Shown: positions 2,916 through 30,702 of the stretch, in pieces
Numbering within the stretch: the first letter of the stretch is position 1
How the letters are laid out: every line of letters begins with the position of its first letter
IMG/VR virus record: IMGVR_UViG_3300028361_000031
Span: 1 to 58,833 of that record
Strand: one strand, 5' to 3'
Origin: a virus
DNA: 58,833 nt
The notes under the pieces: generated by a model
Databases searched by the model: none
What the model was told of the DNA's origin: nothing
The model's input: only the letters and a program-made list of their open reading frames with translations
Made by a program: the position numbers and the translations under genes

Positions 2916-3107
2916 ATAAAGGTTATAATATATTTACAAGATGGTGTACATATACGTACCATCCAAAGTAAAGGACAATTACAATTAATTAATTGTCTTA
3001 TAGATATTGGGTATATATTTAAAACAATATGGCAATATGATTGGGAAACTAATCAACAATATGAACTTAAAAAATTAATACAATTTATAAATGAAACAGT
3101 TACATAA
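2916..3107 (+). pseudogene. Relic of a Vsr/EDxHD-type homing endonuclease C-terminus
   Basis: An ORF segment without a start codon lies between recA/uvsX and the exonuclease gene and runs 17 bases into the latter. Its end reads GYIFKTIWQYDWETN then ELKKLIQFINET. This mirrors the C-terminal 'GY-x-V-x-x-(I/V)WE-x-(D/E)' plus helix of the intact endonuclease at 4977-5882 (GYDVLVVWENEYN). A GACAATTA/TAATTGTC inverted repeat (2974/2997) lies inside. Upstream sequence is degenerate. The assignment rests on a short similarity read by eye. Confidence 0.4.
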
Positions 3108-4140
3108 AGATATTTTAGAATCAATAAAAACTCAGCCCGTCCGCCCGAGTACACGTAATGGTCGTGTACTTATAGTGGACGGGCTGTGACTGAACACCTT
3201 TATTCGATGTTGGTCAAGTATACCAACTATGAACGAAGATGGTGAACACGTTGCTGGTGTTACTGGTGTATTAAAATCAATAGGTTTAGCAATACGCACC
3301 GTGAAACCCACTAGGGTCATCGTAGTGTTCGATGGTAAGGGGGGATCCACTTCCAGAAAAAAGGTATTCAGTGGTTACAAGGAAGGTAGGGAAAAGAATA
3401 AATTAAGGGTAAATCGACAGTACGCTGATATGATGAACGAGGAAGATGAACGTACATCTATGAAACGTCAATACGTTTGGTTATCCGATATGATAGATCA
3501 CCTACCCATGACAACCATGATGTACGATGGCATAGAAGCGGATGATGTTATGGCTTACATAGCAACCGATTTACTAAAAGAAGATGAGCAGGCGGTGTTG
3601 ATGTCAACCGATAAGGATTTTTTACAACTTGTCAATGACACCACCATCGTCTGGTCACCTACTAAAAAGAAAATATATAACAAACAAACGATAAAGGAAG
3701 AATTTGGATTGGAATCTAAGAACCTATTGTTATATAGGGTATTGGATGGCGATGTCTCGGATAGAATTCCTGGAGTTAAGGGTGTGGGATTAAAGACTCT
3801 TTTGAAACGAATACCCGAAATCTCCGGTGAAGAACAAATGCAAGTAAGTGATTTACTTAGGTTGGCGGAAGAAAAACGTGGTAAAATCAGAATATATGAT
3901 ACTATATTGGAATCCAAGGAACAAATTCTAATGAACGAGAAACTTATGCAATTGAAATCTACCACCATGATAAATGGTATCTCCAAGATGAAAATCTTGG
4001 ATCTATATAATGAAGAACTCAAACCAGTAAACAAAATGAATTTCTTCAAAGTTTGTATGAAGTATAAGGTTATCAACAATATGGGAGATATTAACAAGTG
4101 GCTACACACTACTTTCAGTAATTTGATTACAGAAAAATAA
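3091..4140 (+). CDS. 5'-3' exonuclease (FEN/RNase H family), in-frame TGA after codon 32
   Basis: A FEN-like nuclease of the T4 RNase H/Pol I 5'-nuclease type that removes RNA primers. Downstream motifs are VIVVFDGKGGS, DGIEADDVMAYIA, STDKDFLQLV and the helix-3-turn-helix DRIPGVKGVGLKTL. The first catalytic Asp lies upstream, in GRVLIVDGL (codons 24-32), followed by TGA (3187-3189), CTG, and then NTFIRCW. The nearest ATG after the stop is 3229; starting there would lose the VDG motif and the conserved Arg. The ATG at 3091 is preceded by an in-frame TAA. The TGA sits between two CTG codons and right after a strong stem-loop. Hopping over TGA-CTG gives VDGLNTFIR with the family's normal spacing. 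Otherwise the gene is inactivated. Confidence 0.75.
3133..3186 (+). promoter_or_regulatory. GC-rich two-part stem-loop ending at the in-frame TGA
   Basis: Ten-base outer stem: CAGCCCGTCC (3133-3142) pairs perfectly with GGACGGGCTG (3177-3186). Eight-base inner stem: AGTACACG (3148-3155) pairs with CGTGTACT (3163-3170) around a 7-base loop. It lies in the coding region and uses GC-rich codons unlike those of the surrounding genes. The last stem base touches the TGA at 3187. No U-tract follows, so it is not a typical terminator. A recoding signal is the favoured reading. Confidence 0.75.
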
Positions 4141-4940
4141 TGGATACAAGTGAACAACTAGATACCTTACAAGAATTTGGCCATAGTTTTCAGACAAAAG
4201 TAATAGCAGCATTATTAACGGATATTAAATTTTTAGATTCATTATCCGATATAATGCATATTAAATTCTTTGAATCTGAAGCTAACAAATGGATTGTGGG
4301 GGAAATTATAGATTACCATAGACAATATAAGAAATCACCATCAATGGATGTTTTCAAGGTACAGTTATCGAAAATAGATGATAATAGTATCCTTAAAAAA
4401 ACAGCGGTGGATCAACTCCGTCATGTTTATACAAGCGTGGGTAACCTTGATATGGATTATATTAAAAATCAATTCACTAATTTTTGTATAAACCAAAATT
4501 TAAAGGTAGTTATATTAAAATCGGTCGATTTACTAAAAATTGGTTCATATGATAAAATAAAGGAACTTACCGATGAGGCACTAAAAGTGGGTACACAAGT
4601 CGATTTGGGCCACAACTATACGGAGGATTATGCGGAAAGATATGATGAAGATAAACGAACTACGATAAAAACCGATTGGGATATAATCAACGACTTGATG
4701 AACGGTGGTCTGGGACCAGGTGAATTAGGTGTAGTGGTTGCACCAAGTGGTGTGGGTAAATGTATAGGTGGTGATTCAACAATTGAAATACAGTATGATG
4801 AAATCGGATTTGAATTAGATAATGGGTATATTTTATGGTGTAAACCTTGGTATGTAATTCAATTGAATGATAATATTAATATAACGGCAAAACAGGCTCA
4901 ATTATTAATTTCCACCAATGGAAACGGTAAAACTATGTAA
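4140..4940 (+). CDS. 41: Replicative DNA helicase gp41, N-terminal piece fused to split-intein N-fragment
   Basis: Residues 1-207 are the N-terminal domain and start of the RecA-like core of a DnaB-family helicase, ending APSGVGK, the first part of Walker A. At Cys208 (base 4761) the intein begins: CIGGDSTIEIQYD is block A, and the fragment runs 59 aa to a stop. Block B is not here but on the partner ORF at 5879, so the break lies between blocks A and B, which is atypical. The start overlaps the exonuclease stop by one base. Trans-splicing with the 5879 product is required to complete Walker A (GVGK^T). Confidence 0.85.
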   Translation: MDTSEQLDTLQEFGHSFQTKVIAALLTDIKFLDSLSDIMHIKFFESEANKWIVGEIIDYHRQYKKSPSMDVFKVQLSKIDDNSILKKTAVDQLRHVYTSVGNLDMDYIKNQFTNFCINQNLKVVILKSVDLLKIGSYDKIKELTDEALKVGTQVDLGHNYTEDYAERYDEDKRTTIKTDWDIINDLMNGGLGPGELGVVVAPSGVGKCIGGDSTIEIQYDEIGFELDNGYILWCKPWYVIQLNDNINITAKQAQLLISTNGNGKTM

Positions 4941-4952
4941 AATTTTATTTTT

Positions 4953-4963
4953 TTATATTTATA
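4953..4963 (+). promoter_or_regulatory. TTATATTTATA motif (late-promoter candidate) before endonuclease ORF
   Basis: Exact TTATATTTATA, 13 bases upstream of the ATG at 4977. The same 11-mer is found before the endonuclease ORFs at 7051, 12117 and 32837, and related forms before others. By analogy with T4 late promoters (an octamer at about -10) it may drive late expression. Confidence 0.45.
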
Positions 4964-4976
4964 TTAAACTATTATA

Positions 4977-5882
4977 ATGGAATATATAGAATGTAAAATT
5001 TGTGGATTTGAGGGGAAGTCATTGACAAGTCATATAGCTCGGAAACATAATATGAAAATATCCGAATATAAATCTAAATATGGTGTAGATGTTGTTCAAA
5101 TAATGCCAGAATCACAAAAACAATATCTTTCTGAATTATGGAAAAATAGAATGAAGGAATCTATCTGGCAAGATAAATATAATAAAAATAAAACTTCTAT
5201 TTGGTCGGAGAAATATTGGATAAATTTGGGATATTCCAATCAAGGTGCAAAGAACAAAATTTCAGACATACAACGTAAGAATTCCAAGAAACGTGATTAT
5301 GATAAATCACCTAGTACATTAACAAAGGAATTTTGGATTAATAGGGGATACTCAAATGATGAATCAAAGAAACTAATTTCAGATATACAGTCAAAATTAT
5401 CAAACGTTTCTCCTAAGTTTAGTGGTAAAGCTCATAGTAAAAAAAGTAAATTAAAAACATCGAACTCTATGAGAAAATATATCACTAATTTTGGTAAAGA
5501 TAAATGGGTTGGTCATTTTGGTGATTTTAATGATATAAAATACAGAAGTGAAGATGAAATAGATATATTTAATTTTATATCAAATGAATTAAAATTCCAA
5601 GCCCAATCTAATGTTTTTATATCTGGATATAATGTGGATATTATAGTAGGAAATAAAATAATAGAATATTTTGGAATTTTTTGGCATGCACATACTGATT
5701 TATTTGAAGATAATGACATGCATCCTATAATAAATAAAACTGCATTAGAGATTAGGAAATATGATTTGGATAAAATTAACACATTACGGAATTTAGGATA
5801 CGATGTACTGGTTGTGTGGGAAAATGAATACAATATTAATAAAAAATTAATAAAAGAATCGATTCGTAAATATTTACAATGA
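4977..5882 (+). CDS. EDxHD (Vsr-like) homing endonuclease between gp41 pieces
   Basis: 301 aa. The N-terminal zinc finger is CKICGFEGKSLTSHIARKH (residues 6-24, C2H2-like). Next come two copies of a YW-I-x-x-GYS repeat (about 81-90 and 118-127), probably DNA-binding. The C-terminal nuclease domain has YRSEDEIDIF, then SGYNVDIIVGNKIIEYFGIFWHAH, the E/D/H pattern of the I-Bth0305I-type family. It lies between the two halves of split intein 1 and presumably spreads that cassette to empty helicase genes. Its stop overlaps the next ATG (ATGA). Confidence 0.8.
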   Translation: MEYIECKICGFEGKSLTSHIARKHNMKISEYKSKYGVDVVQIMPESQKQYLSELWKNRMKESIWQDKYNKNKTSIWSEKYWINLGYSNQGAKNKISDIQRKNSKKRDYDKSPSTLTKEFWINRGYSNDESKKLISDIQSKLSNVSPKFSGKAHSKKSKLKTSNSMRKYITNFGKDKWVGHFGDFNDIKYRSEDEIDIFNFISNELKFQAQSNVFISGYNVDIIVGNKIIEYFGIFWHAHTDLFEDNDMHPIINKTALEIRKYDLDKINTLRNLGYDVLVVWENEYNINKKLIKESIRKYLQ

Positions 5883-6991
5883 TACATAAAAGAACTATTA
5901 CAGAAAAAATTAGAATTGATGATTTTTTCGAATTAAATAAAATACCTGAAATAGAAAATCATTTCGAAGATTTAGAATATGATATTAAAGTAAATACACC
6001 GTATGGATTTCACAAAGTCCCATCAGTTTGTAGAACTGTAAAACAAGTAGCGATTCGAATTTACTTTACCAATAATGTTACACTTGAATGTGGGTGGGAA
6101 CATAAATTAAAAGTAAACGGTGAATGGAAGGAAGTCCGCGATATCAATATGGATACCGATATCATAGAAACCGAGAGCGGAACTACTAAAATTAGACGTA
6201 TTAAGGAAAATAAAGAGAAAATTTTATATGATATAATGGTCGATACGGTTCACTGCTTTTATGCAAATGGTATATTATCACATAATACGTGGATACTAAC
6301 CGCAATAGGTGCAGCCGCGGTAAAACAAGGATTGACCGTTGCACATTATTCAATGGAATTATCCGAATTTTACGTGGGTCAGAGATACGATACAGTGTTC
6401 ACAGGAATACCGACAAAGGAACATCCTGATAGGCGGGATGATCTTGAATCAAAGATAAAAACACTCCAAGGAAAACTATTCATAAAATATTTCCCACCAA
6501 GGGGGGTAACTTCTAAAAAATTAGAACAACACATCGATAAGTTATCGGCATCGGGTAATAGACCCGATTTGATTATTGTTGATTACGCAGATTTACTGTT
6601 ATCATCCAACAAGAACAATGATTCCACATACGCTGAACAAGGTGGTGTGTACATTGAATTACGTGGTATGAGTGGTGAAATGGGTATCCCTATCTGGACT
6701 GCATCTCAAACAAACAGATGTTGTGAAATTTCTGAACTGGTAGACACAAAACAAGGCAAAATTGAAATTGGTAAAATTAAAGAAAACGATGAAATTTTAA
6801 CACACGATGGTTATAAAAAAGTAACAAGGGTTTTTCCAATTGAAACCCAACCTGTATATGAAATTACATTAAAAAGTGGAAAAACAGTAAAATGTTCATT
6901 ACGTCACGAATTTCCTGTAAAATATGGAAAGCTTAAATCGTTAGAAAGTGGATTAAAAGTTGGTGACAAATTATTTACAAAAAAATCATAA
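5879..6991 (+). CDS. 41: gp41 middle piece flanked by intein-1 C-fragment and intein-2 N-fragment
   Basis: Three modules. (1) Residues 1-136 are the intein-1 C-fragment: the block-B region (VTLECGWEHKLKV) and the C-terminal VHCFYANGILSHN, with +1 Thr at base 6287. (2) Residues 137-280 are the helicase core: TWILTAIGAAAVKQG finishes Walker A, then HYSMELSE, then Walker B DLIIVDYADLL, ending WTASQTNR. (3) Cys281 (base 6719) starts a 90-aa intein-2 N-fragment with PVYEITLKSGKTV, a His-containing block B and SGLKVGDKL, closely matching the published split intein gp41-8. One ORF thus needs two trans-splicing events, one at each end. Confidence 0.88.
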   Translation: MIHKRTITEKIRIDDFFELNKIPEIENHFEDLEYDIKVNTPYGFHKVPSVCRTVKQVAIRIYFTNNVTLECGWEHKLKVNGEWKEVRDINMDTDIIETESGTTKIRRIKENKEKILYDIMVDTVHCFYANGILSHNTWILTAIGAAAVKQGLTVAHYSMELSEFYVGQRYDTVFTGIPTKEHPDRRDDLESKIKTLQGKLFIKYFPPRGVTSKKLEQHIDKLSASGNRPDLIIVDYADLLLSSNKNNDSTYAEQGGVYIELRGMSGEMGIPIWTASQTNRCCEISELVDTKQGKIEIGKIKENDEILTHDGYKKVTRVFPIETQPVYEITLKSGKTVKCSLRHEFPVKYGKLKSLESGLKVGDKLFTKKS

Positions 6992-7026
6992 AAAATTTGT
7001 GTATCCGTTCCGATTTTATAAAAGCC

Positions 7027-7037
7027 TTATATTTATA
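7027..7037 (+). promoter_or_regulatory. TTATATTTATA motif (late-promoter candidate)
   Basis: Identical to the motif at 4953-4963 and likewise 13 bases upstream of the start codon, here the GTG at 7051. The shared spacing suggests function. Confidence 0.45.
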
Positions 7038-7050
7038 ATAAAGAGACATT

Positions 7051-8100
7051 GTGGAATTATATTATAAAAACGTCGATCATATTTTAAGGGTGAAACCTTT
7101 TAATGAATTTGACAATATAACGGATTATATTATAGAACAATTGAATGGAGTTGTAGTGGAATTTACTAAACAGGAAATTCAAAGTAAATCATTACATATC
7201 AAAACTTTAATTAAATATAATGTAGATGGTAATTGGGTTGATAAAATAAATGAAAGTAAAAAGTTTGGAAATGATAGTAGTTCATTAGACTGCTTTATTA
7301 CCAGATATGGTGAAAATATTGGGAAGCAATTATTTGATGAAAAGTTAAAAAACTCTATTATAACTGAAAAAGATTATATAATAAAATTTGGTAAACTATT
7401 AGGTAAATCTGAATGGAAGGAATTGTGTAAATCAAAAGGCAACTTTTCAGAACAACATTTTATAGATAAATTTGGTAAAAAACTTGGTAGACAAAAGTGG
7501 CAGGAAATATTGACCAAAAAATTAAAAACTCAAAAAGAGAATTTTAAGAATAAAAAATGGAAAAATGGACGAACACTTGAAGAATATCAAGAACGATATG
7601 GTATAGAAGATGGATATAATCGATGGAAATTGCGAAATGATAAACACAAATATAGATTATCCCGTGATTATTATATAGATAAATATGGTAAAGAACGAGG
7701 TTCAATTGAATATAGATTATATGTAGAACAAAATATTAGAAATTTTAAATCGACTGGTGGTTATAGTAAAATATCCCAACGATTGTTCAATCAAATTTAC
7801 AATAAATTAAACCGAAAACTTCAAGAAAAATGTAAATATGCAACTTGCGGTGGAGAAGTTAGATTTTTTATGAATAATGATAAGTTATTTTTAACCGATT
7901 TTAAATGTGGTAATAAAATAATTGAATATGATGGAACATATTGGCATAGTTTTAATGATACACAAAACAATGACAAAATAAAGCAATCGTTTTTAGAAAG
8001 TAAAGGATATACTGTTTTAAGAATACCGGAATCAGACTACCTAAAAAATAAACAACAAGTTATAAACAAATGTATAAATTTTATAAATGAAACAACATAA
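7051..8100 (+). CDS. EDxHD (Vsr-like) homing endonuclease with FxxKYGxxxG repeats
   Basis: 349 aa from a GTG start (no in-frame ATG occurs until late in the frame). It has four or more copies of a short repeat of the type (F/Y)I-x-(K/R)(Y/F)G-x-x-x-G (CFITRYGENIG, HFIDKFGKKLG, YYIDKYGKERG), probably DNA-contact modules. The C-terminal nuclease has FLTDFKCGNKIIEYDGTYWHS and a closing GYTVLRIPESDY. It is a second member of the family at 4977 but with a different binding region, as expected for a different target. It sits between the halves of split intein 2 and overlaps the next ORF by 14 bases. Confidence 0.75.
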   Translation: MELYYKNVDHILRVKPFNEFDNITDYIIEQLNGVVVEFTKQEIQSKSLHIKTLIKYNVDGNWVDKINESKKFGNDSSSLDCFITRYGENIGKQLFDEKLKNSIITEKDYIIKFGKLLGKSEWKELCKSKGNFSEQHFIDKFGKKLGRQKWQEILTKKLKTQKENFKNKKWKNGRTLEEYQERYGIEDGYNRWKLRNDKHKYRLSRDYYIDKYGKERGSIEYRLYVEQNIRNFKSTGGYSKISQRLFNQIYNKLNRKLQEKCKYATCGGEVRFFMNNDKLFLTDFKCGNKIIEYDGTYWHSFNDTQNNDKIKQSFLESKGYTVLRIPESDYLKNKQQVINKCINFINETT

Positions 8101-8587
8101 TTTAAATCCGAAAGATTTTGAAATGGATGAAATCGTTTCAATTGAATTAATCGGTGAACGAGAAACCGTAGATATAACAGTAGAAGATACTCATATGTTT
8201 TTCGCTAATGGTATATACACCCATAATTCAGGCATTGACTCGGAAGTAATTGAAGCCGATAAAATAGCTGATTCATATGCAAAGGTAATGAACGCCGATT
8301 TCATTATGAGTTGGAGTAGAAGGGCAAAGGATAAGTTGAACAACACCGCACGTGCACATATTATGAAAAATAGATTCGGGCCCGATGGAATCACGTTCCC
8401 ATGTAAGATGGATACGTTTAACGGGGTTATAGAAGTTTATGATGGTAACTCCCCACAAGGTATAATAACATCCAAGGAAACAGAGAATGGTAACTCCGTT
8501 CAGAAACAATTACTTCATAAGAAGTATCTTGATACAATGGGAGTTATTTTGTTCCTTTTATCGGTTCTACCGATTTTGGGTACATAG
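8087..8587 (+). CDS. 41: Intein-2 C-fragment fused to gp41 C-terminal piece
   Basis: Residues 1-47 are the intein-2 C-fragment (ETVDITVEDTHMFFANGIYTHN), very like gp41-8 IntC, with +1 Ser at base 8228. The helicase then resumes: SGIDSEVIEADKIADSYAKV and KNRFGPDGITFPCKMD, ending after 119 extein residues. The three helicase pieces add up to 470 aa, against 475 for T4 gp41, so the spliced product would be full length. The last 14 residues (VILFLLSVLPILGT) are oddly hydrophobic and may be a changed C-terminus. Confidence 0.85.
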   Translation: MKQHNLNPKDFEMDEIVSIELIGERETVDITVEDTHMFFANGIYTHNSGIDSEVIEADKIADSYAKVMNADFIMSWSRRAKDKLNNTARAHIMKNRFGPDGITFPCKMDTFNGVIEVYDGNSPQGIITSKETENGNSVQKQLLHKKYLDTMGVILFLLSVLPILGT

Positions 8588-10982: not shown

Positions 10983-12059
10983 ATGGACGAAAGAGAACCG
11001 TTTGATTGGATAACGGCAGAATCCCGCACCTTTTTGGAAAGGGGTTATTTAAGCGAAAGTGAAGAACCGACCGATAGAATAAAATCAATAGCAGAACATG
11101 CAGAAAAATTATTGGGTATAGAGGGATTCGCTGATAAATTTTATGGTTATATGGGTAAGGGGTGGTACTCCCTTTCTTCACCCGTATGGGCAAATTTTGG
11201 AAAAGAAAGAGGTTTGCCCGTTTCTTGTTTCGGATCAAATATATCCGATGATATTGAATCCATTTTATTCACAGCTGCAGAAGTTGGTGAGATGAGTAAA
11301 ATGGGTGGCGGTACATCGGGATATTTTGGAAATATTAGAGGCAGAGGTGCACCTATTACAGATAACGGGAGTGCACCTGGATCGGTACATTTTATGAACT
11401 TGTTTCAAAGTATGGTCGATAACATATCACAGGGGAACACACGGAGAGGAAGATTTTCACCATACCTACCATTAGAACATCCAGACATTATGGAGTTCTT
11501 AGAAATCGGCACAGAAGGGTTTCCTATACAAGATTTAACCCATGCGGTTACAGTTACCGATAAGTTCATGGATGAAATGATTGCAGGGGATGTTGAAAAA
11601 CGAGCAATTTGGGCTAAAGTAATCCAACGAAGGGGTGAAATCGGTTATCCGTATATTATGTTTCATGATACAATGAATAAAAACGCACCCGATGTATATC
11701 GTGATAAAGGTGCTAAAATATATAACTCGAATCTATGTGTAACAGCTGATACTTTAGTTGATATAAAATTGAATGGTGTAGAAATGAATGTGCCTATAAT
11801 TGCTCTTAATGGATTCTTTCAATTGGGCGGATACAGATCATTAGAGGTTAAATCGTTTAATATTGATACTGGAATTGTCGAATATAAATCGGTTACTGAT
11901 AGTGAGTTGACAGCTCGTAGTGCTAAAATTATGAAAATTACTGATGAAGTTTCAGGAAAATTTATTAAATGCACACCTGAACATAAAGTTTATACATCCA
12001 ATCGAGGTTATGTAATGGCAAAGGATTTACATATTGATGATCAATTAATTATCAATTAA
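10983..12059 (+). CDS. nrdA: Ribonucleotide reductase alpha subunit, N-terminal piece with split-intein N-fragment
   Basis: Extein residues 1-251 start directly in the catalytic barrel (SSPVWANFGKERGLPVSCFG, MGGGTSGYFGNIRGRG), with no ATP-cone. They end YNSNL, just before the catalytic-site Cys. At Cys252 (base 11736) a 107-aa intein N-fragment begins (CVTADTLVDIKLNG) and carries block B FIKCTPEHKVYT. The partner is the ORF at 13056. SNL^C is a known NrdA intein site in the active-site loop. Confidence 0.88.
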   Translation: MDEREPFDWITAESRTFLERGYLSESEEPTDRIKSIAEHAEKLLGIEGFADKFYGYMGKGWYSLSSPVWANFGKERGLPVSCFGSNISDDIESILFTAAEVGEMSKMGGGTSGYFGNIRGRGAPITDNGSAPGSVHFMNLFQSMVDNISQGNTRRGRFSPYLPLEHPDIMEFLEIGTEGFPIQDLTHAVTVTDKFMDEMIAGDVEKRAIWAKVIQRRGEIGYPYIMFHDTMNKNAPDVYRDKGAKIYNSNLCVTADTLVDIKLNGVEMNVPIIALNGFFQLGGYRSLEVKSFNIDTGIVEYKSVTDSELTARSAKIMKITDEVSGKFIKCTPEHKVYTSNRGYVMAKDLHIDDQLIIN

Positions 12060-12076
12060 AAAGTTCTATGTTCAGA

Positions 12077-12116
12077 AATTTCATTTCTTTATATTTATAC
12101 GTAAAGAAATGAAATT
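12077..12116 (+). promoter_or_regulatory. 14-bp hairpin with late-promoter-like loop abutting the HNH start codon
   Basis: A perfect 14-base stem (12077-12090 with 12103-12116) encloses a 12-base loop. TTATATTTATA (12089-12099) straddles the end of the left arm and the loop, and the ATG at 12117 follows the right arm at once. In a read-through transcript the start region is sequestered. A transcript started from the loop would lack the left arm and be open. This is the T4 I-TevI control layout. Confidence 0.6.
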
Positions 12117-13055
12117 ATGAACTATGTTAAATTATATTACAATTTATGCAACTATTGTAGAGATACTAATGTTATAGATAGAATGGTTACTAGAAATAAA
12201 AATGATGAAAGAATTGGGAAAACGTACATATATACCGAAATCCATCATATTATACCTAAACATTCTAATGGATCGAATGACGATGTAAATTTAGTAGAAA
12301 TGTTACCAGAGGAACATTATATGGCACATTTAATTAGATATTATGCGTATGATGATAGAAATGATTTTATATCGATTCGTCTAATGATTAATGGTTATAT
12401 TGGAAAGAAATATGTTAATGATATACCTGTTAAAACTATGAACAAAATGGTCAAAGGATTCAAGCAGAGAATATATGAATTTAGAAAGTATAATGAGTGG
12501 CATACCAAAGAAGGAAGAAAATCAATTTCAAACTCACGTAAAGGTACATTTCCAGTAATTGATAGTATTACACGTGAAAGTATGGGTTCGGTTTCTAATT
12601 CACATCCAAATATTAAATCTGGGAAATGGATACATCATTCAAGTGGAATGACTTCAGTTACAGATCAAGATGGCAACAAACTATATATATCCTCAGCTGA
12701 ATATCAAGCGAATAAGGATATATATCGAGCCAATGTTGGCGATGTTAGTGGTGAATTAAATCCGAGGTATTCTGGGATTAGCGATATTGAGATTATTAAT
12801 CACTTATCTGAATTTTCACATAAAATAGATTGTGGATATATAATTAATTACGGTAGATTTAGAGATTTTTATGAAAAATACTATAATATAAAAATGCCAA
12901 AATCTTTTACTAAGTTTCGATTTGATGGTGCCGGGGTTGAAATGTTATATAATATTGTAAATAAAAAAACAGGACTATTAATAAATAAGTACCCTAGAGG
13001 ATTACTTAATATGGAAATTAAAGAAAAAATGAATAATTTAAAAAGAATATTATAA
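12117..13055 (+). CDS. HNH homing endonuclease between nrdA pieces
   Basis: 312 aa. The HNH motif is YTEIHHIIPKHSNGSNDDVN then LPEEHYMAHLI (about residues 40-75). This is followed by basic and NUMOD-like linker segments (HTKEGRKSISNSRKGTFP). It lies between the two halves of the NrdA split intein, whereas the gp41 inteins carry EDxHD enzymes. Its TAA is directly followed by the next ATG. Confidence 0.8.
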   Translation: MNYVKLYYNLCNYCRDTNVIDRMVTRNKNDERIGKTYIYTEIHHIIPKHSNGSNDDVNLVEMLPEEHYMAHLIRYYAYDDRNDFISIRLMINGYIGKKYVNDIPVKTMNKMVKGFKQRIYEFRKYNEWHTKEGRKSISNSRKGTFPVIDSITRESMGSVSNSHPNIKSGKWIHHSSGMTSVTDQDGNKLYISSAEYQANKDIYRANVGDVSGELNPRYSGISDIEIINHLSEFSHKIDCGYIINYGRFRDFYEKYYNIKMPKSFTKFRFDGAGVEMLYNIVNKKTGLLINKYPRGLLNMEIKEKMNNLKRIL

Positions 13056-14111
13056 ATGGGATTAAAAATAGAATATATAGATGAACCAGTTCCAGTATAT
13101 GACATAACCGTAGAGGATAATCATAATTTCTTCGGTAATGGTATATTAGTACACAACTGTTCCGAAATTGCTCTACATAATTCGGATGATGAATCCTTCG
13201 TATGTGTGTTATCATCAATGAACGTATTGCACTACGATGAGTGGAAATCAACCGACGCGGTTCAAACTATGATTTATTTCTTGGATGCTGTTGTTTCTGA
13301 TTTTCTAAAGAAGTTGGAAGATTTGAGGGATTCATCCACCACAAGTGGAAAACGTGCATTCATATACATGGAAAAGGCCTATAATTTCGCTAAAAGACAG
13401 AGAGCACTTGGGTTGGGAGTCCTTGGATGGCATTCACTTCTACAATCCAAGGGGTTGCCGTTCGATAGTGTTGAAACATCTAAATTGAATGTTGAAATAT
13501 TCCGATTCATTAAGGATAAATCATATAAGGCATCAGCCGAACTGGCTGATTTTTTCGGTGAACCGGAATACTTAATAGGATATGGTAGAAGAAATGTAAC
13601 TTTAAACGCAGTTGCACCGACTACATCATCTGCATTTATATTAGGACAGGTATCTCAATCAGTTGAACCAATCTGGTCGAATTGTTATGTAAAAGATGTT
13701 GCGAAGATGAAAGTAACCATACAAAATCCGATATTAAAGAAATTCTTATGTTCTATAAATAAGGATAACAAAACCATATGGGATAGTATTAAGAAACATG
13801 ATGGTTCGGTACAACATCTGGATTTTCTATCGACATCACAAAAAGACGTATTTAGAACATTTGCCGAAATAAATCAATCATCCATTATTAATCAGGCAGC
13901 GGTTCGTCAAGATTATATTGACCAATCACAATCGCTGAATTTAATGATACCACCGGATTTATCCACAAAAGATGTAAATAAATTATTAATTGATTCGTGG
14001 AAATTGGGAGTAAAAACACTTTATTATCAACACTCAATGAATTCAGCTCAAGTTCTTTCACGGAAGAAATTACAAATAAATGATCAAGAATGCTTGGCAT
14101 GCCAAGGATAA
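13056..14111 (+). CDS. nrdA: Split-intein C-fragment fused to NrdA C-terminal piece
   Basis: Residues 1-34 are the intein C-fragment (VPVYDITVEDNHNFFGNGILVHN), and +1 Cys at base 13158 is the conserved NrdA Cys in SNL^CSEI. The barrel continues (RALGLGVLGWHSLLQSKGLP, LNAVAPTTSSAFILG, the radical-transfer KTLYYQHS tyrosine pair). It ends ECLACQG with the C-terminal redox Cys pair. The spliced protein would be 568 aa, short because it lacks an ATP-cone. Confidence 0.88.
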   Translation: MGLKIEYIDEPVPVYDITVEDNHNFFGNGILVHNCSEIALHNSDDESFVCVLSSMNVLHYDEWKSTDAVQTMIYFLDAVVSDFLKKLEDLRDSSTTSGKRAFIYMEKAYNFAKRQRALGLGVLGWHSLLQSKGLPFDSVETSKLNVEIFRFIKDKSYKASAELADFFGEPEYLIGYGRRNVTLNAVAPTTSSAFILGQVSQSVEPIWSNCYVKDVAKMKVTIQNPILKKFLCSINKDNKTIWDSIKKHDGSVQHLDFLSTSQKDVFRTFAEINQSSIINQAAVRQDYIDQSQSLNLMIPPDLSTKDVNKLLIDSWKLGVKTLYYQHSMNSAQVLSRKKLQINDQECLACQG

Positions 14112-20300: not shown

Positions 20301-20350
20301 AAATCATCAAGGCAAAGGATTTAGTTGAATTGGATGATATAATTATTTAA
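17327..20350 (+). CDS. 43: Family B DNA polymerase, N-terminal piece with contiguous intein
   Basis: TTG start at 17327 chosen because YKNIHYSRRKNMIYVWDD begins there and no ATG exists between the upstream stop (17306) and codon 13. Contains 3'-5' exonuclease motifs (LTYDIECEM; Exo II GWN^CDNFDTPML split by the intein) and palm motif A (DWIFDLDLTSLYPSI). Motif B is KILLNSLYGCLG, followed by NAEAVTTTG. It stops after an extra segment (KLENGETIQRW ... IKAKDLVELDD), before motif C, which is on the ORF at 20478. Extein length is 647 aa. With the second ORF the total is 933 aa, against 898 for T4 gp43. Confidence 0.88.
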   Translation: MYKNIHYSRRKNMIYVWDDVLGLKTFKYIKYAYQPAINGEYRSIYGDKLTKTYQYNHDDAGLFESDVPETTRTLIDMYSESDDVSNGHTILTYDIECEMISGLPDPLEATNELTSIALHSSYNDQYWVLVMDKDGSMVERKTDKAIVIPFQREEDMLLKYLELYEQIAPTIVTGWNCIPTNSNIWKKHEIVKLNTILKNDVLYDSKCTELYPVSEKIINTISLKNGECLDASSEHKFLVRYKHKSKYTNLQSSSNTYTESYLSTSDIREKSDMYDIFFQVNVNDNTNNDIEISDDCLYAMGLIYTDGSISKTDKCVSIYNNDYNLICEVKKYLDTQKRVFRTSNFRELPPKTTYRLRTWMTEYNELTKYINFIWNPDIKCKQLNVNLLSKLSKRQFWIFMSGCIDGDGHVFKDGSRGVNLCNYNGDIHNFVELIRWNGAFSYSNDNQLTIPMNSNNLWLKKYLILKIKYKKDGLQSHNTYDIKYSRSKTIKWRYDSISKSYFVALKSIEVSDKSSEMMDISCTGGQFKYRGISTHNCDNFDTPMLYNRIKRLLGETTANRLSPIGECYYSPNRKRFSIAGVSYLDYITLYKNYNFGELPNYRLDTVAKIELGRGKIEYDGNLDELFKDDIEKFIEYNLVDVELVVDFEKKLQFIELCRGICHAGHVPYEDFPWSSKYLEGALLTYLRRGNLVAPNKPNRVTLRIKSGSKGDKNIYMDKLPQNTPTSGNIKISKSPSSHFQLEFSDVDFKTNSFILKEPLPTTLLSEWKLKIDFAGAYVKPPIVGKYDWIFDLDLTSLYPSIIMSLNISPETKIAKIKDWDANKFLNGDVDEYSIDGNIITKENLRKYLDESKYTVASNGMLYQTDIVGCIPGILDLWFNKRVEYNTEKKKWGKLGDKDKYDFYDKRQLVQKILLNSLYGCLGLEIFRFFDIQNAEAVTTTGIFVIKSTADMTNIKYNRELGGQPYIFKLENGETIQRWPNSDVSVNREGIIQIIKAKDLVELDDIII
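17855..18934 (+). other. Contiguous PolB intein with LAGLIDADG endonuclease (360 aa)
   Basis: Starts at Cys177 (CIPTNSNIWKKHEIVKLN) and ends at ISTHN before +1 Cys537. Block B is LDASSEHKFLV. The two LAGLIDADG helices are LYAMGLIYTDGSIS and IFMSGCIDGDGHVF. It is inserted in the Exo II motif (GWN^CDNFD) of the proofreading domain, so failure to splice would disable proofreading. It is the only unsplit intein in the window. Confidence 0.9.
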
Positions 20351-20477
20351 ACAAAAAACAAATATGAAAATAACAAAAATTACTCGTGGGAACATCAGTA
20401 TAGATGAAAGAGGACAGTGCGACTCTAACATTTATATTGATTTCTAATCCCCGTTAGTTAATTCTTTCGGGGATAAA
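20351..20477 (+). other. Linker between the two polymerase ORFs with a hairpin
   Basis: 127 bases. A 27-codon ORF (20364-20447, MKITKITRGNISIDERGQ...) is present but not recognised. ATCCCCG (20447-20453) pairs perfectly with CGGGGAT (20468-20474), three bases before the ATG of the second piece. The hairpin could cover or expose that start codon, or be a trace of an inserted element. No intein sequence is seen on either side. Confidence 0.5.
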
Positions 20478-21338
20478 ATGTACACAGATTCAGTATTTTT
20501 TAGTGCAACACCATTGATGGATAATAGGTTGCCTAATTGGAAAAATGAAACACAGGAAATAATAACAGGATATGTAAACGATATTGCAACCGAAGTCCAA
20601 GATTATCTAAATAATTTTTATGATGTCCTTGCACCTAAAATATTTAATATCGATAAAGATAAACATAGATTTGAGATAAAGAAAGAATATGTTGCAAAAT
20701 CTGGAATTTGGATTGCAAAAAAGAGATATGCACAGTGGATAATATCAGATAATGGGTTACCAGTTGATAGATTGGATGTAAAGGGATTGGATGTCAAACG
20801 TAGTTCATTTCCAACTGCGTTCAAGGGAATCATGTCAGAGGTTCTAATTTCAATACTAAAGGGTGAAACTGAACAAGATTTATCAGACAAAGTTTTGAAA
20901 TTCAAAAAATCATTACCATCCATAAAAGTCAAATCCATATCTAAAAACTCGGCAGTTAAAGAGTTATCAAAGTATGTATCGAGTGGTGATAGACATCTAT
21001 TTCAATTTAAAAAAGGAACACCCGCCCACGTAAAGGCCGGGATTGCATATAATGATTTACTAATACATTATAAATGTGATTTTAAATATGCTCCACTTTC
21101 GAACGGATCAAAAATTAAATGGATATATTTACGGAATAATCCATTAGGATTGGATGCACTTGGATTTACAGGATATCAGGATCCACCTGAAATTTTGGAA
21201 TTATTGGAAACATACGCACATCATGATAAGATGTTCGAACGGGATTTAGAGGGCAAGCTCCAAGATTTTTGGGATTCGTTGGGTTGGGGAAAAGTAATAG
21301 ATCAAAAGAAATCAGCAGAAAAGTTTTTCAGTTTTTAG
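20478..21338 (+). CDS. 43: Family B DNA polymerase, C-terminal piece (motif C, thumb)
   Basis: 286 aa beginning MYTDSVFFSATPL, i.e. motif C (usually YxDTDS) is at the very N-terminus. The second, metal-binding Asp is kept, but the first Asp position is Tyr. KKRYAQWIISDNG is the KKRY motif, DVKGLDVKRSSFP follows, and a thumb-like C-terminus ends EKFFSF, like a clamp-binding tail. Polymerase genes split in the palm are known in some T4-related Aeromonas phages, where the two proteins assemble. The same is inferred here. Confidence 0.85.
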   Translation: MYTDSVFFSATPLMDNRLPNWKNETQEIITGYVNDIATEVQDYLNNFYDVLAPKIFNIDKDKHRFEIKKEYVAKSGIWIAKKRYAQWIISDNGLPVDRLDVKGLDVKRSSFPTAFKGIMSEVLISILKGETEQDLSDKVLKFKKSLPSIKVKSISKNSAVKELSKYVSSGDRHLFQFKKGTPAHVKAGIAYNDLLIHYKCDFKYAPLSNGSKIKWIYLRNNPLGLDALGFTGYQDPPEILELLETYAHHDKMFERDLEGKLQDFWDSLGWGKVIDQKKSAEKFFSF

Positions 21339-28621: not shown

Positions 28622-28637
28622 CATACTTATAAGTATG
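28622..28637 (+). promoter_or_regulatory. 16-bp palindrome covering an endonuclease start codon
   Basis: CATACTTATAAGTATG is a perfect palindrome whose last three bases are the ATG of the GIY-YIG ORF. It also resembles the TTATATTTATA class of motif. It could sequester the start in mRNA or be a protein-binding site. Confidence 0.45.
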
Positions 28638-29279
28638 ATTATATACAAAGTAACAAATACTATAAGCAATAAAGTTTATATAGGACAAACAATTCAGACA
28701 CTACCACAAAGACAATCGGTACATCGAAAAACAGCAAAGAATGGATCCGAAACTAATTTCCATAGAGCATTGAGAAAATACTCAAAACGCAATTGGAAAT
28801 GGGAAGTATTGGAAACTGTAAAATCGGCTGAATTACTTAATGAACGAGAGATATTTCATATTAGAGAATATGATGCATATAAGTCAGGATATAATATGAC
28901 CGAAGGTGGTGATGGGGGATTGACATATAAAAAGGGAACTGAATTATACGAACGTATCAAACATAAACTTGGTAAATGGGAGAATGGAAATCCGGGTGCA
29001 ACACCAATTGCAATAAAAAAGAGATTAGAAACTTTCAAATCCGTAAATTGGCCAAGCGGTGAAACTCACGGTAACTATGGAACGCATCCTGAAAAACCAT
29101 CTTTACGTGGCAGTGGTAATCCAATGTATGGTAAGACACCTACAAATGCTCGTAGAGTAGAGGTTGATGGAATTGTATATAAAAGTGTTGCTGATGCAGC
29201 TCGGAAACTGGATACCAATAATAATACGATTAGGAGAAGGTGCTTAAATGAAGAATTAACAAATTATAAATATAAATAG
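28635..29279 (+). CDS. GIY-YIG homing endonuclease
   Basis: 214 aa. GIY-YIG nuclease: IIYKVTNTISNKVYIGQT (residues 2-19), Arg in ALRKYSKRNWKWEV, Glu in LLNEREIFHI, and the closing GYNMTEGGDGG. NUMOD3-like repeats (GSGNPMYGKTPTNARR) and a C-terminal NUMOD1-type HTH (VEVDGIVYKSVADAARKL) bind DNA. It is free-standing between a pseudogene and the clamp loader gene, and is a probable SegA-like mobile element. Confidence 0.85.
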   Translation: MIIYKVTNTISNKVYIGQTIQTLPQRQSVHRKTAKNGSETNFHRALRKYSKRNWKWEVLETVKSAELLNEREIFHIREYDAYKSGYNMTEGGDGGLTYKKGTELYERIKHKLGKWENGNPGATPIAIKKRLETFKSVNWPSGETHGNYGTHPEKPSLRGSGNPMYGKTPTNARRVEVDGIVYKSVADAARKLDTNNNTIRRRCLNEELTNYKYK

Positions 29280-29282
29280 AAT

Positions 29283-29933
29283 ATGGGGTTTTTTGAAGAA
29301 AAGAAATCAGTAAAAAAAGTAAGTAATTCACTTTGGTGTGAACAGTATAGACCAACAAATTTAGAAGAATATGTTGGTAATACACATCTAAAGGAAAAGA
29401 TTCAGGGGTATTTGGAATCGGGTGATATTCCACATTTATTGTTATTTGGTAAAGCTGGCACCGGCAAAACTACATTAGCTCGATTGATAGTAAACACAAT
29501 AGAATGTGATCACATAATCATAAATGCATCCGATGAAAACAACGTGGACACGGTAAGAACCAAGGTCAAGGGATTTGCATCAACCGTGGGGTTTAAGGAT
29601 AAGAAAGTTATTATATTGGATGAGTGTCTAGATGAAAATACATTGGTTTCGGTTATGCGGAATGGTAATGAAGTTAAACTTCCAATTAAAAGTTTAGATG
29701 ATAAAAATGATTTAGTAAAATCGTGGAATGTGGATAAGAGTCAAATCCAATGGCGACCTTTTTATCATTGGAATGTGGGTGTTAGGGATGTCTATGAAAT
29801 TGAACTTGAAAATGGAGAAATAGTGGTATGTACCGAAGAACACAAATGGTATGTATTGGATAAGAATGATAATCTGATAGTAGTAAAAACTAAAGATTTA
29901 CATAAATATAATTATATTTTATCCCCACAATAG
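29283..29933 (+). CDS. 44: Clamp loader large subunit gp44, N-terminal piece with split-intein N-fragment
   Basis: Extein residues 1-114: LWCEQYRPTNLEEYVGN, Walker A LLLFGKAGTGKTTLARL (about 53-69), ending IILDE. At Cys115 (base 29625) a 102-aa intein N-fragment begins (CLDENTLVSVMRNGNEVKLP) with block B VVCTEEHKWYVLD. The insertion is inside Walker B (DE^CD), so the ATPase is dead until spliced. No endonuclease gene lies between the halves, only 28 bases. Confidence 0.9.
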   Translation: MGFFEEKKSVKKVSNSLWCEQYRPTNLEEYVGNTHLKEKIQGYLESGDIPHLLLFGKAGTGKTTLARLIVNTIECDHIIINASDENNVDTVRTKVKGFASTVGFKDKKVIILDECLDENTLVSVMRNGNEVKLPIKSLDDKNDLVKSWNVDKSQIQWRPFYHWNVGVRDVYEIELENGEIVVCTEEHKWYVLDKNDNLIVVKTKDLHKYNYILSPQ

Positions 29934-29961
29934 GATAAAAAAATACAATTAAATAAGTTAT

Positions 29962-30702
29962 ATGATGGAGTTAAAAAAAATTAAAATCAATTCAATAAAT
30001 AAGTTAACCGAACAACGTAGCGTCTACGATATATCGGTTGAAGGTAATCATAATTTTTTCATTGGAAAAACGGAAACACTAACACACAATTGTGACTATT
30101 TAACCCCAAATGCTCAAGCTATAATGCGTAATCTAATGGAAACGTTCTCACATCACTGTAGGTTCATCCTAACGTGTAATTACGTGGAAAAGGTTATACC
30201 ACCCATTCAATCCCGATGTCAGACGTTCCAGATAGTACCACCGACCAAGAAGGATGTAGCAGTTCAAGTCGCGAGGATACTTGGGTTGGAGAGTATTACA
30301 TACGAACCGCAAAATATTGTAACAATAGTAGATTCAGCTTATCCGGATATTCGTAAGATTATCAACACTGCTCAAATGAATTCTAGTAAAGGTACACTAA
30401 AGTTGGATAAAACTAATATCATAGATTCGGATATACGGACCAAGATTGTAGAAATATTACAATCTAAGGATGATAAACGAAACAAATATATGAATTCAAG
30501 GAAGGCTATTGCTGATTCACGGATGCAGGATTTTACCGAACTGTACACGTATTTATATGAGAAAGTAGATGATTATGCGGATGGAAATACATCATCGGTA
30601 ATCTTGTTATTAGCAGAAGGACAATATAAGGATGCAATGGTCGTGGATCGCGAAATCGTTTTTATGGCCACTTTGGTAAATATAATCGGAGTTGTATCGT
30701 AA
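29962..30702 (+). CDS. 44: Split-intein C-fragment fused to gp44 C-terminal piece
   Basis: Residues 1-43 are the intein C-fragment (RSVYDISVEGNHNFFIGKTE, ending LTHN), with +1 Cys at base 30091. The extein continues CDYLTPNAQAIMRNLMETFS, FILTCNYVEKVIPPIQSRC (sensor 1 and the SRC arginine finger), YPDIRKIINTAQMN (sensor 2). Spliced gp44 would be 317 aa against 319 in T4. Frame and stop differ from the first piece, so this is a genuine two-gene arrangement and not a single stop mutation. Confidence 0.9.
   Translation: MMELKKIKINSINKLTEQRSVYDISVEGNHNFFIGKTETLTHNCDYLTPNAQAIMRNLMETFSHHCRFILTCNYVEKVIPPIQSRCQTFQIVPPTKKDVAVQVARILGLESITYEPQNIVTIVDSAYPDIRKIINTAQMNSSKGTLKLDKTNIIDSDIRTKIVEILQSKDDKRNKYMNSRKAIADSRMQDFTELYTYLYEKVDDYADGNTSSVILLLAEGQYKDAMVVDREIVFMATLVNIIGVVS

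Follow-up and report, generated by a model that had tools for sequence, protein, structure and literature searches.

Putative stop-hopping over five to seven nucleotides, linked to mobile homing endonucleases, in 5′-exonuclease genes of bacteriophages

How is an exonuclease gene read when a stop codon stands among the codons of its active site? This question is raised by a 58.8-kb virus record, the whole of which (58,833 nucleotides) was analyzed and is called the window in the following; the features described for the exonuclease locus lie on its + strand. Translation from the ATG at 3091 gives MKQLHKDILESIKTQPVRPSTRNGRVLIVDGL, then TGA CTG, and then NTFIRCWSSIPTMNEDG... up to a TAA ending at 4140. 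The product was identified as a 5′-3′ exonuclease by Pfam profile search (5_3_exonuc_N, PF02739, E 6e-27; 5_3_exonuc, PF01367, E 8e-8, the latter below the curated cutoff). The 5′ part of the gene comprises 32 codons ending in ...RVLIVDGL (3091..3186) and is supported by its translation and by a prefix and VDG motif common to uninterrupted relatives. The 3′ part, assigned by Pfam, extends from NTFIR, with AAC at 3193 as the resume codon, to the TAA at 4138-4140 (3193..4140). The prefix MKxLYKxIL...RVLIIDGL is common to uninterrupted genes; therefore, translation probably starts at ATG 3091, which places the stop within the gene.

A sequence-only reading had proposed that ribosomes hop here from one CTG to a second one. 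Its rendering of the site as VDGL-TGACTG-NTFIR was correct base for base on re-reading. Based on the sequence and on cross-phage comparison, the take-off codon would be CTG (Leu; 3184..3186) and the landing codon the CTG at 3190..3192, which would stay undecoded. The TGA between them (3187..3189), evident from sequence and translation, would occupy the A site at take-off, and TGACTG (3187..3192) would be the bypassed insert of 6 nt. The spacing argument for the hop, VDG followed by five residues and Arg, also held up in a gapless alignment with solved structures (Taq VDGHHLAYR and another bacterial Pol I, LDGNSLAFR), and this spacing is free of insertions in uninterrupted relatives and in the aligned solved 5′-nucleases. 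A hop restores it, while readthrough gives two extra residues. A tRNA gene search of the window found none, so that no suppressor tRNA is encoded there. Recoding of TGA was rejected, as TGA terminates 8 of the 64 window ORFs counted and relatives have TAG and TAA at this position.

The stop codon is preceded by a hairpin, described by the sequence-only reading as a stem-loop of 10 bp plus 8 bp ending at the TGA, and both stems proved perfect. The 5′ arm of the lower stem, CAGCCCGTCC (3133..3142), includes a conserved CCRTY and is supported by arm pairing, folding and covariation. Its 3′ arm, GGACGGGCTG (3177..3186; arm pairing and comparison), encodes the active-site D-G-L and ends at the stop. 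The upper stem is formed by AGTACACG (3148..3155) and CGTGTACT (3163..3170), both assigned by arm pairing. With −36.5 kcal/mol, the hairpin at 3133-3186 is the most stable 56-nt hairpin in the window on both strands (runner-up −26), and the wider region has a folding z of −5.6, with 0 of 200 shuffles as stable. The GC content is 59% in the hairpin versus 32.5% in the window, and rare codons are used in both arms. Also, CAGUUAC after the start codon (3097-3103) can pair with the stop-landing segment GUGACUG (3186-3192); a similar outer pairing, AGUUAGAG with CUCUGACU, was seen at locus L335, and L125 apparently lacks it as judged by eye.

Alignment with the 80 nearest IMG/VR exonucleases, proposed earlier as a check, showed that the six bases are missing from 78 of them, which read DGLNTFIR or DGLNTYIR. 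The two insert-bearing members are the window's own phage (8.6-9.1 kb, 100% and 99.98% identity). Since the sequence was thus found again in two other IMG/VR contigs over more than 8.5 kb, a one-off assembly error is excluded; as copies of the same phage, the contigs corroborate the base calls without adding an independent case, and only one phage population is known to carry the allele of the window. In the nearest annotated isolates, Microcystis phage Mel-JY01 and Flavobacterium phage immuto, the exonuclease is annotated as one uninterrupted gene, and no cultured phage with the insert was found among the nearest records examined.

Broad gapped scans gave mostly noise among the matches listed, but they provided the first independent cases from diverged phages. 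A follow-up scan used the pattern DG-codon-stop-N{1,25}-NTFIR, permitting insert lengths from +4 to +28. Over 216 exonuclease loci, 140 had no insert, 39 had +6, 25 had +5 and 11 had +7, and other lengths were absent; these counts are skewed to NTFIR/NTYIR-type motifs and are not an estimate of prevalence. One further gene among the 216 lacks the DG pattern but reads through. The 75 insert-bearing records, in which some contigs are counted twice, correspond to 37 distinct sequences, and the insert sits at one and the same codon across diverged phages. A stop-blind scan of relatives of the L374 exonuclease detected an insert in 24 of 80 (19 with +5, five with +7), and the stop came first in all 24. 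The relatives thus do not hold a random nonsense mutation without a stem, the outcome named beforehand as speaking against a hop. A stop-containing insert recurs at this codon in many diverged phages and invariably follows a hairpin; an isolated nonsense mutation was rejected. Two apparent +25 cases, L297 and L404, were discarded as ordinary genes in which the pattern match started upstream of the start codon. Among bacterial and archaeal genome contigs, a search with the +6 pattern gave no hits. A general screen for hairpin, stop and open downstream frame returned 785 candidates, mostly chance occurrences in GC-rich phages, and a check of flanking genes for similar interruptions found only the exonuclease, plus one probable indel.

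In all 37 distinct sequences the stop (TGA, TAG or TAA) directly follows the take-off codon, which is always a Leu or Thr codon (CTN, TTG, ACG or ACT). For the window, the proposed 6 nt and matched codons agree with the sequence, in which the CTG/CTG match is exact; elsewhere, lengths of 5, 6 or 7 nt occur, and many landing codons match only in part. Of the 24 distinct +6 sequences, 22 have CTN as the codon before AAY. The +5 forms land on GTG for CTG or TTG, on GCT for ACT, and on GCG or ACA for ACG; the +7 forms land on GTC for CTC, with one outlier (AAA for CTA). Take-off and landing codons agree at two of three bases in all +5 and in all +7 forms except one. It is mostly the first base that differs, an unusual situation for re-pairing that counts against a hop. 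Because the +5 and +7 landing codons are imperfect, the data suggest that mRNA geometry sets the landing position there at least partly. The poor matches at L422 (CTT/CGA), L375 (CTT/GTA) and L387 (CTA/AAA) are either decaying alleles or a sign that the codon match is dispensable. The frame is the same on either side of the stop in the +6 forms, including the window, but not in the +5 and +7 forms. No common nascent-peptide motif was evident by eye in the prefix of 32-42 codons.

The hairpin is as constant as the stop. Its 3′ end lies 0-4 nt ahead of the stop in all 37 distinct sequences, and it is located wholly 5′ of the gap and not inside it. In its core, CCRTY pairs with GAYGG, the Asp-Gly codons, and R and Y agree in 37 of 37 sequences (26 G-C and 11 A-T); these sequences are related by descent, and the covariation does not represent 37 independent events. 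The R/Y agreement was not built into the anchor search, which accepted every R/Y combination. Clade A2 has pairing in 96.5% of cells and compensatory changes at four pairs, and only 1 of 500 shuffles gave a covariation score as high; support is weaker in clade A1 (21 of 500). Median hairpin stability is z −4.5 for insert-bearing genes versus −1.6 for uninterrupted relatives. Some uninterrupted relatives also have hairpins before VDG, either weaker or strong but differently placed; the hairpin may therefore be older than the bypass or have another role.

Further structures were observed near this site. One clade of uninterrupted exonucleases (L511, L513, L539 and similar loci) has another strong hairpin of ~17 bp, AAGGAGGGTGTTGGAA...TTCTGACATCCTCCTTG, located ~60 nt before the VDG codons, ending before GATGG and without a stop; in some members an SD-like AAGGAGG lies within its 5′ arm. 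At L478, L359, L390 and L387, which carry +5/+7 elements, an SD-like AAAGGAG or AAGGAGG is found directly 5′ of the hairpin base.

Where does the insert come from? The sequence-only reading had noted an endonuclease relic overlapping the start of the exonuclease gene, and this relic is real. It consists of the C-terminal 55 codons of a homing endonuclease gene (HEG) of the EDxHD/MTES_1575 type (2940..3104, stop at 3105-3107); the relic's frame, stop included, shares the 17 bases with which the exonuclease gene begins. The assignment is based on a weak Pfam match to MTES_1575 (profile positions 64-96, the C-terminal third; E 0.005, below the curated cutoff) and on HEGs ending at the same place in relatives. 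Using motifs, an HEG-type C-terminus was detected directly upstream in 49 of 75 insert-bearing records versus 0 of 141 records without insert. Two kinds of nuclease occur, one MTES_1575/EDxHD-like and one HNH, both combined with NUMOD3; their MTES_1575 and HNH matches are below curated cutoffs. Other insert-bearing loci have a relic, as in the window, or uvsX directly upstream.

Near-isogenic phages with flanks of ~98-100% identity differ by a cassette consisting of HEG, exonuclease N-terminus, hairpin and stop. In L519 (+5) and the uninterrupted L511, 1,906 nt upstream are 100% identical, and the exonuclease body, beginning exactly at the AAY codon, is 99.6% identical; between these shared flanks, L519 has ~1,095 nt (HEG, exonuclease N-terminus, hairpin and TAGTG) versus ~128 in L511. 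The pair L481/L480 shows the same presence/absence pattern with the HEG partly deleted. In L518 and L519, the HEG regions are 100% identical over 960 nt and the prefixes 99.2%, at 87.9% identity for uvsX and 83.8% for the exonuclease body. Such identical cassettes inside flanks of only 84-88% identity show that the cassette is mobile and has moved horizontally. Judged by these comparisons, the HEG cassette is a unit that moves between phages and replaces the 5′ end of the resident exonuclease gene, with the join exactly at the NTFIR codons. Insert presence requires 12 changes on a tree with 63 representatives, which was built by a quick method and has several long branches; at least 10 of the changes are forced by well-supported branches.

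The sequence behind the stop was analyzed in pairs of insert-bearing genes with unsaturated synonymous sites. The dN/dS values past the stop were 0.029 (L478/L501), 0.067 (L518/L519), 0.118 (L354/L385), 0.124 (L405/L454) and 0.18 (L405/L398); in recently arrived cassettes, low values partly reflect earlier history. By this measure, the coding sequence past the stop is under purifying selection. All sampled members of the clade with HNH-type HEGs (9 representatives) and of the L335/L398/L405/L411/L412 clade carry the insert, so the stop probably dates back through the whole history of both; sampling there used stop-containing patterns, which weakens the argument for long presence. The DG before the stop is kept in all 37 distinct sequences and 20 of the 37 have no in-frame ATG within 60 codons past the insert; therefore, the N- and C-terminal parts most likely form one chain.

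Taken together, the locus very probably represents a programmed translational bypass, or stop-hop, over 5-7 nt, borne by a mobile homing-endonuclease cassette. For the window, the 6-nt hop tied to a mobile endonuclease, as suggested beforehand, is the explanation best supported by the comparative evidence, from which we infer a full-length product. In the proposed course of events, the HEG would cut the uninterrupted VDGL/NTFIR site and the insert would render the cassette-bearing allele uncuttable. During translation, the ribosome would stall at the stop codon while peptidyl-tRNA(Leu/Thr) occupies the P site, anticodon and codon would separate, and the upstream hairpin, re-zipping behind the ribosome, would help to push it 5-7 nt forward. 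The tRNA would re-pair at or near the codon before AAY and decoding would restart, giving VDG-L-NTFIR in the length of uninterrupted relatives. In the window, the endonuclease would have decayed to a relic with the bypass retained.

One family-length product from the +5, +6 and +7 forms alike is obtained only via a hop. The insert could alternatively be translated, by readthrough in +6 and by −1 and +1 frameshifting in +5 and +7, so that VDGL and NTFIR would be separated by two additional residues in the exonuclease. By arithmetic on the sequences each class could in principle rejoin in this way, and many inserts read stop-C, a leaky context in bacteria. However, readthrough is unable to restore the frame in +5 and +7 and cannot explain these forms, and three different recoding events would be needed at one homologous site. 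All three stop codons occur there, and recognisable slippery sequences are absent at the +5 and +7 sites. The VDG-5-Arg spacing without insertion in uninterrupted relatives and aligned solved homologues also argues against two extra residues, and the likeness of landing to take-off codons would be left unexplained. We therefore regard translation of the insert as quite unlikely. That the insert inactivates the exonuclease, with the cassette disrupting a non-essential gene to be safe from its own endonuclease and the frame past the stop left as a decaying remnant, is quite unlikely. RNase H is dispensable in T4 in the laboratory, so exonuclease loss need not be lethal, and the insert in near-isogenic pairs may be too young to judge; but the all-insert clades have an open downstream frame and low dN/dS at high synonymous divergence, hairpin, stop, take-off codon and the upstream DG motif are preserved, and insert lengths are confined to 5-7 nt.

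A split protein, in which an N-terminal peptide of 32-42 residues cooperates with a C-terminal protein started downstream by re-initiation, would find a start in the window at an in-frame ATG 13 codons past the insert (3229). It is very improbable, given the 20 distinct insert-bearing sequences lacking such a codon, and a start at 3229 loses NTFIR and the metal-binding Asp motif. The exact coincidence of the cassette's right boundary with the insert would also fit a feature of the DNA only, an immunity or co-conversion scar with which translation copes by an unspecified route such as removal at the RNA level. The constant stop and the covariation at coding positions point to translation instead, we know of no machinery that removes 5-7 nt from RNA, and we consider this explanation extremely improbable.

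Returning to the stop-hop, the data can likely be extended to a natural family: HEG-linked mini-bypass cassettes would have invaded the active-site codons of phage 5′-exonuclease genes repeatedly, the hop of 5, 6 or 7 nt would be set mainly by re-zipping of the upstream hairpin and not by a strict codon match, and the bypass would be kept after loss of the endonuclease.

Other genes of the window also appear interrupted. At 20442-20483, in a family-B DNA polymerase gene, a 42-nt insert (TTC TAA TCCCCG...CGGGGATAAAATGTAC), whose second codon is a stop and which has a small hairpin, lies between YID and TDSVFF of catalytic motif C; relatives read YIDTDSVFF. The polymerase frame is also split near 20350, and the insert is possibly a second, longer bypass or belongs to a broken gene. 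A gp41-like replicative helicase at 4140-8587 is apparently broken into three pieces by two split inteins, with an HEG in between in each case. A ribonucleotide reductase (10983-14111) and a clamp-loader gene (28635-30702) look intein-split, and endonuclease-like genes were found between the reductase halves (12117-13055) and before the clamp-loader gene (28635-29279).

The best comparison is T4 gene 60, with a 50-nt bypass, a stop after the take-off codon, a stem-loop and the adjacent mobA, whose insert was proposed to protect against the homing endonuclease (PMC5009743; PMC3014915). The exonuclease element shares with it the immediate stop, the matched or near-matched landing codon and the stem-loop at the take-off site, as well as an insert missing from relatives, an upstream HEG and the proposed endonuclease immunity. 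It differs in the gene (5′-exonuclease instead of topoisomerase), in the gap (5-7 nt versus 50), in take-off from Leu or Thr instead of Gly, in a hairpin entirely 5′ of the gap, and in its occurrence in many phages with two HEG families. Synthetic stop-hops in E. coli constructs, in which codon-stop-codon decodes nine nucleotides as one amino acid (PMC5009743), likewise have matched codons flanking a stop; the present cases are natural, have a hairpin and include the frame-changing +5 and +7 forms. According to a review from 2016, short counterparts had long been presumed, yet no natural in-frame stop-hop was known (PMC5009743). In mitochondria of Magnusiomyces capitatus, many short inserts (byps) are bypassed with imperfect take-off/landing matches, reportedly independent of mRNA context (PMC5009743), whereas here one site in bacteriophages is concerned, with a conserved hairpin and HEG linkage. 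Like free-standing EDxHD/Vsr-like and HNH HEGs of phages, the MTES_1575/NUMOD3 or HNH/NUMOD3 genes adjoin their presumed target; unlike the usual ones, they travel with a bypass that would keep the target gene readable. No prior report of an exonuclease stop-hop element was found in the open-access full texts searched, which leave subscription papers mostly uncovered.

For decades, the only bacteriophage bypass studied in depth has been that of T4 gene 60. With three proposed hop lengths, covarying hairpins, variation in the stop, take-off and landing codons, and near-isogenic alleles free of the insert, the 37 distinct natural sequences allow the requirements for ribosome hopping to be tested by comparison. 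Insert-bearing exonucleases would be overlooked or cut short by gene callers. The cassettes also illustrate how the active-site codons of a gene can be invaded by a selfish endonuclease, apparently without the gene being silenced.
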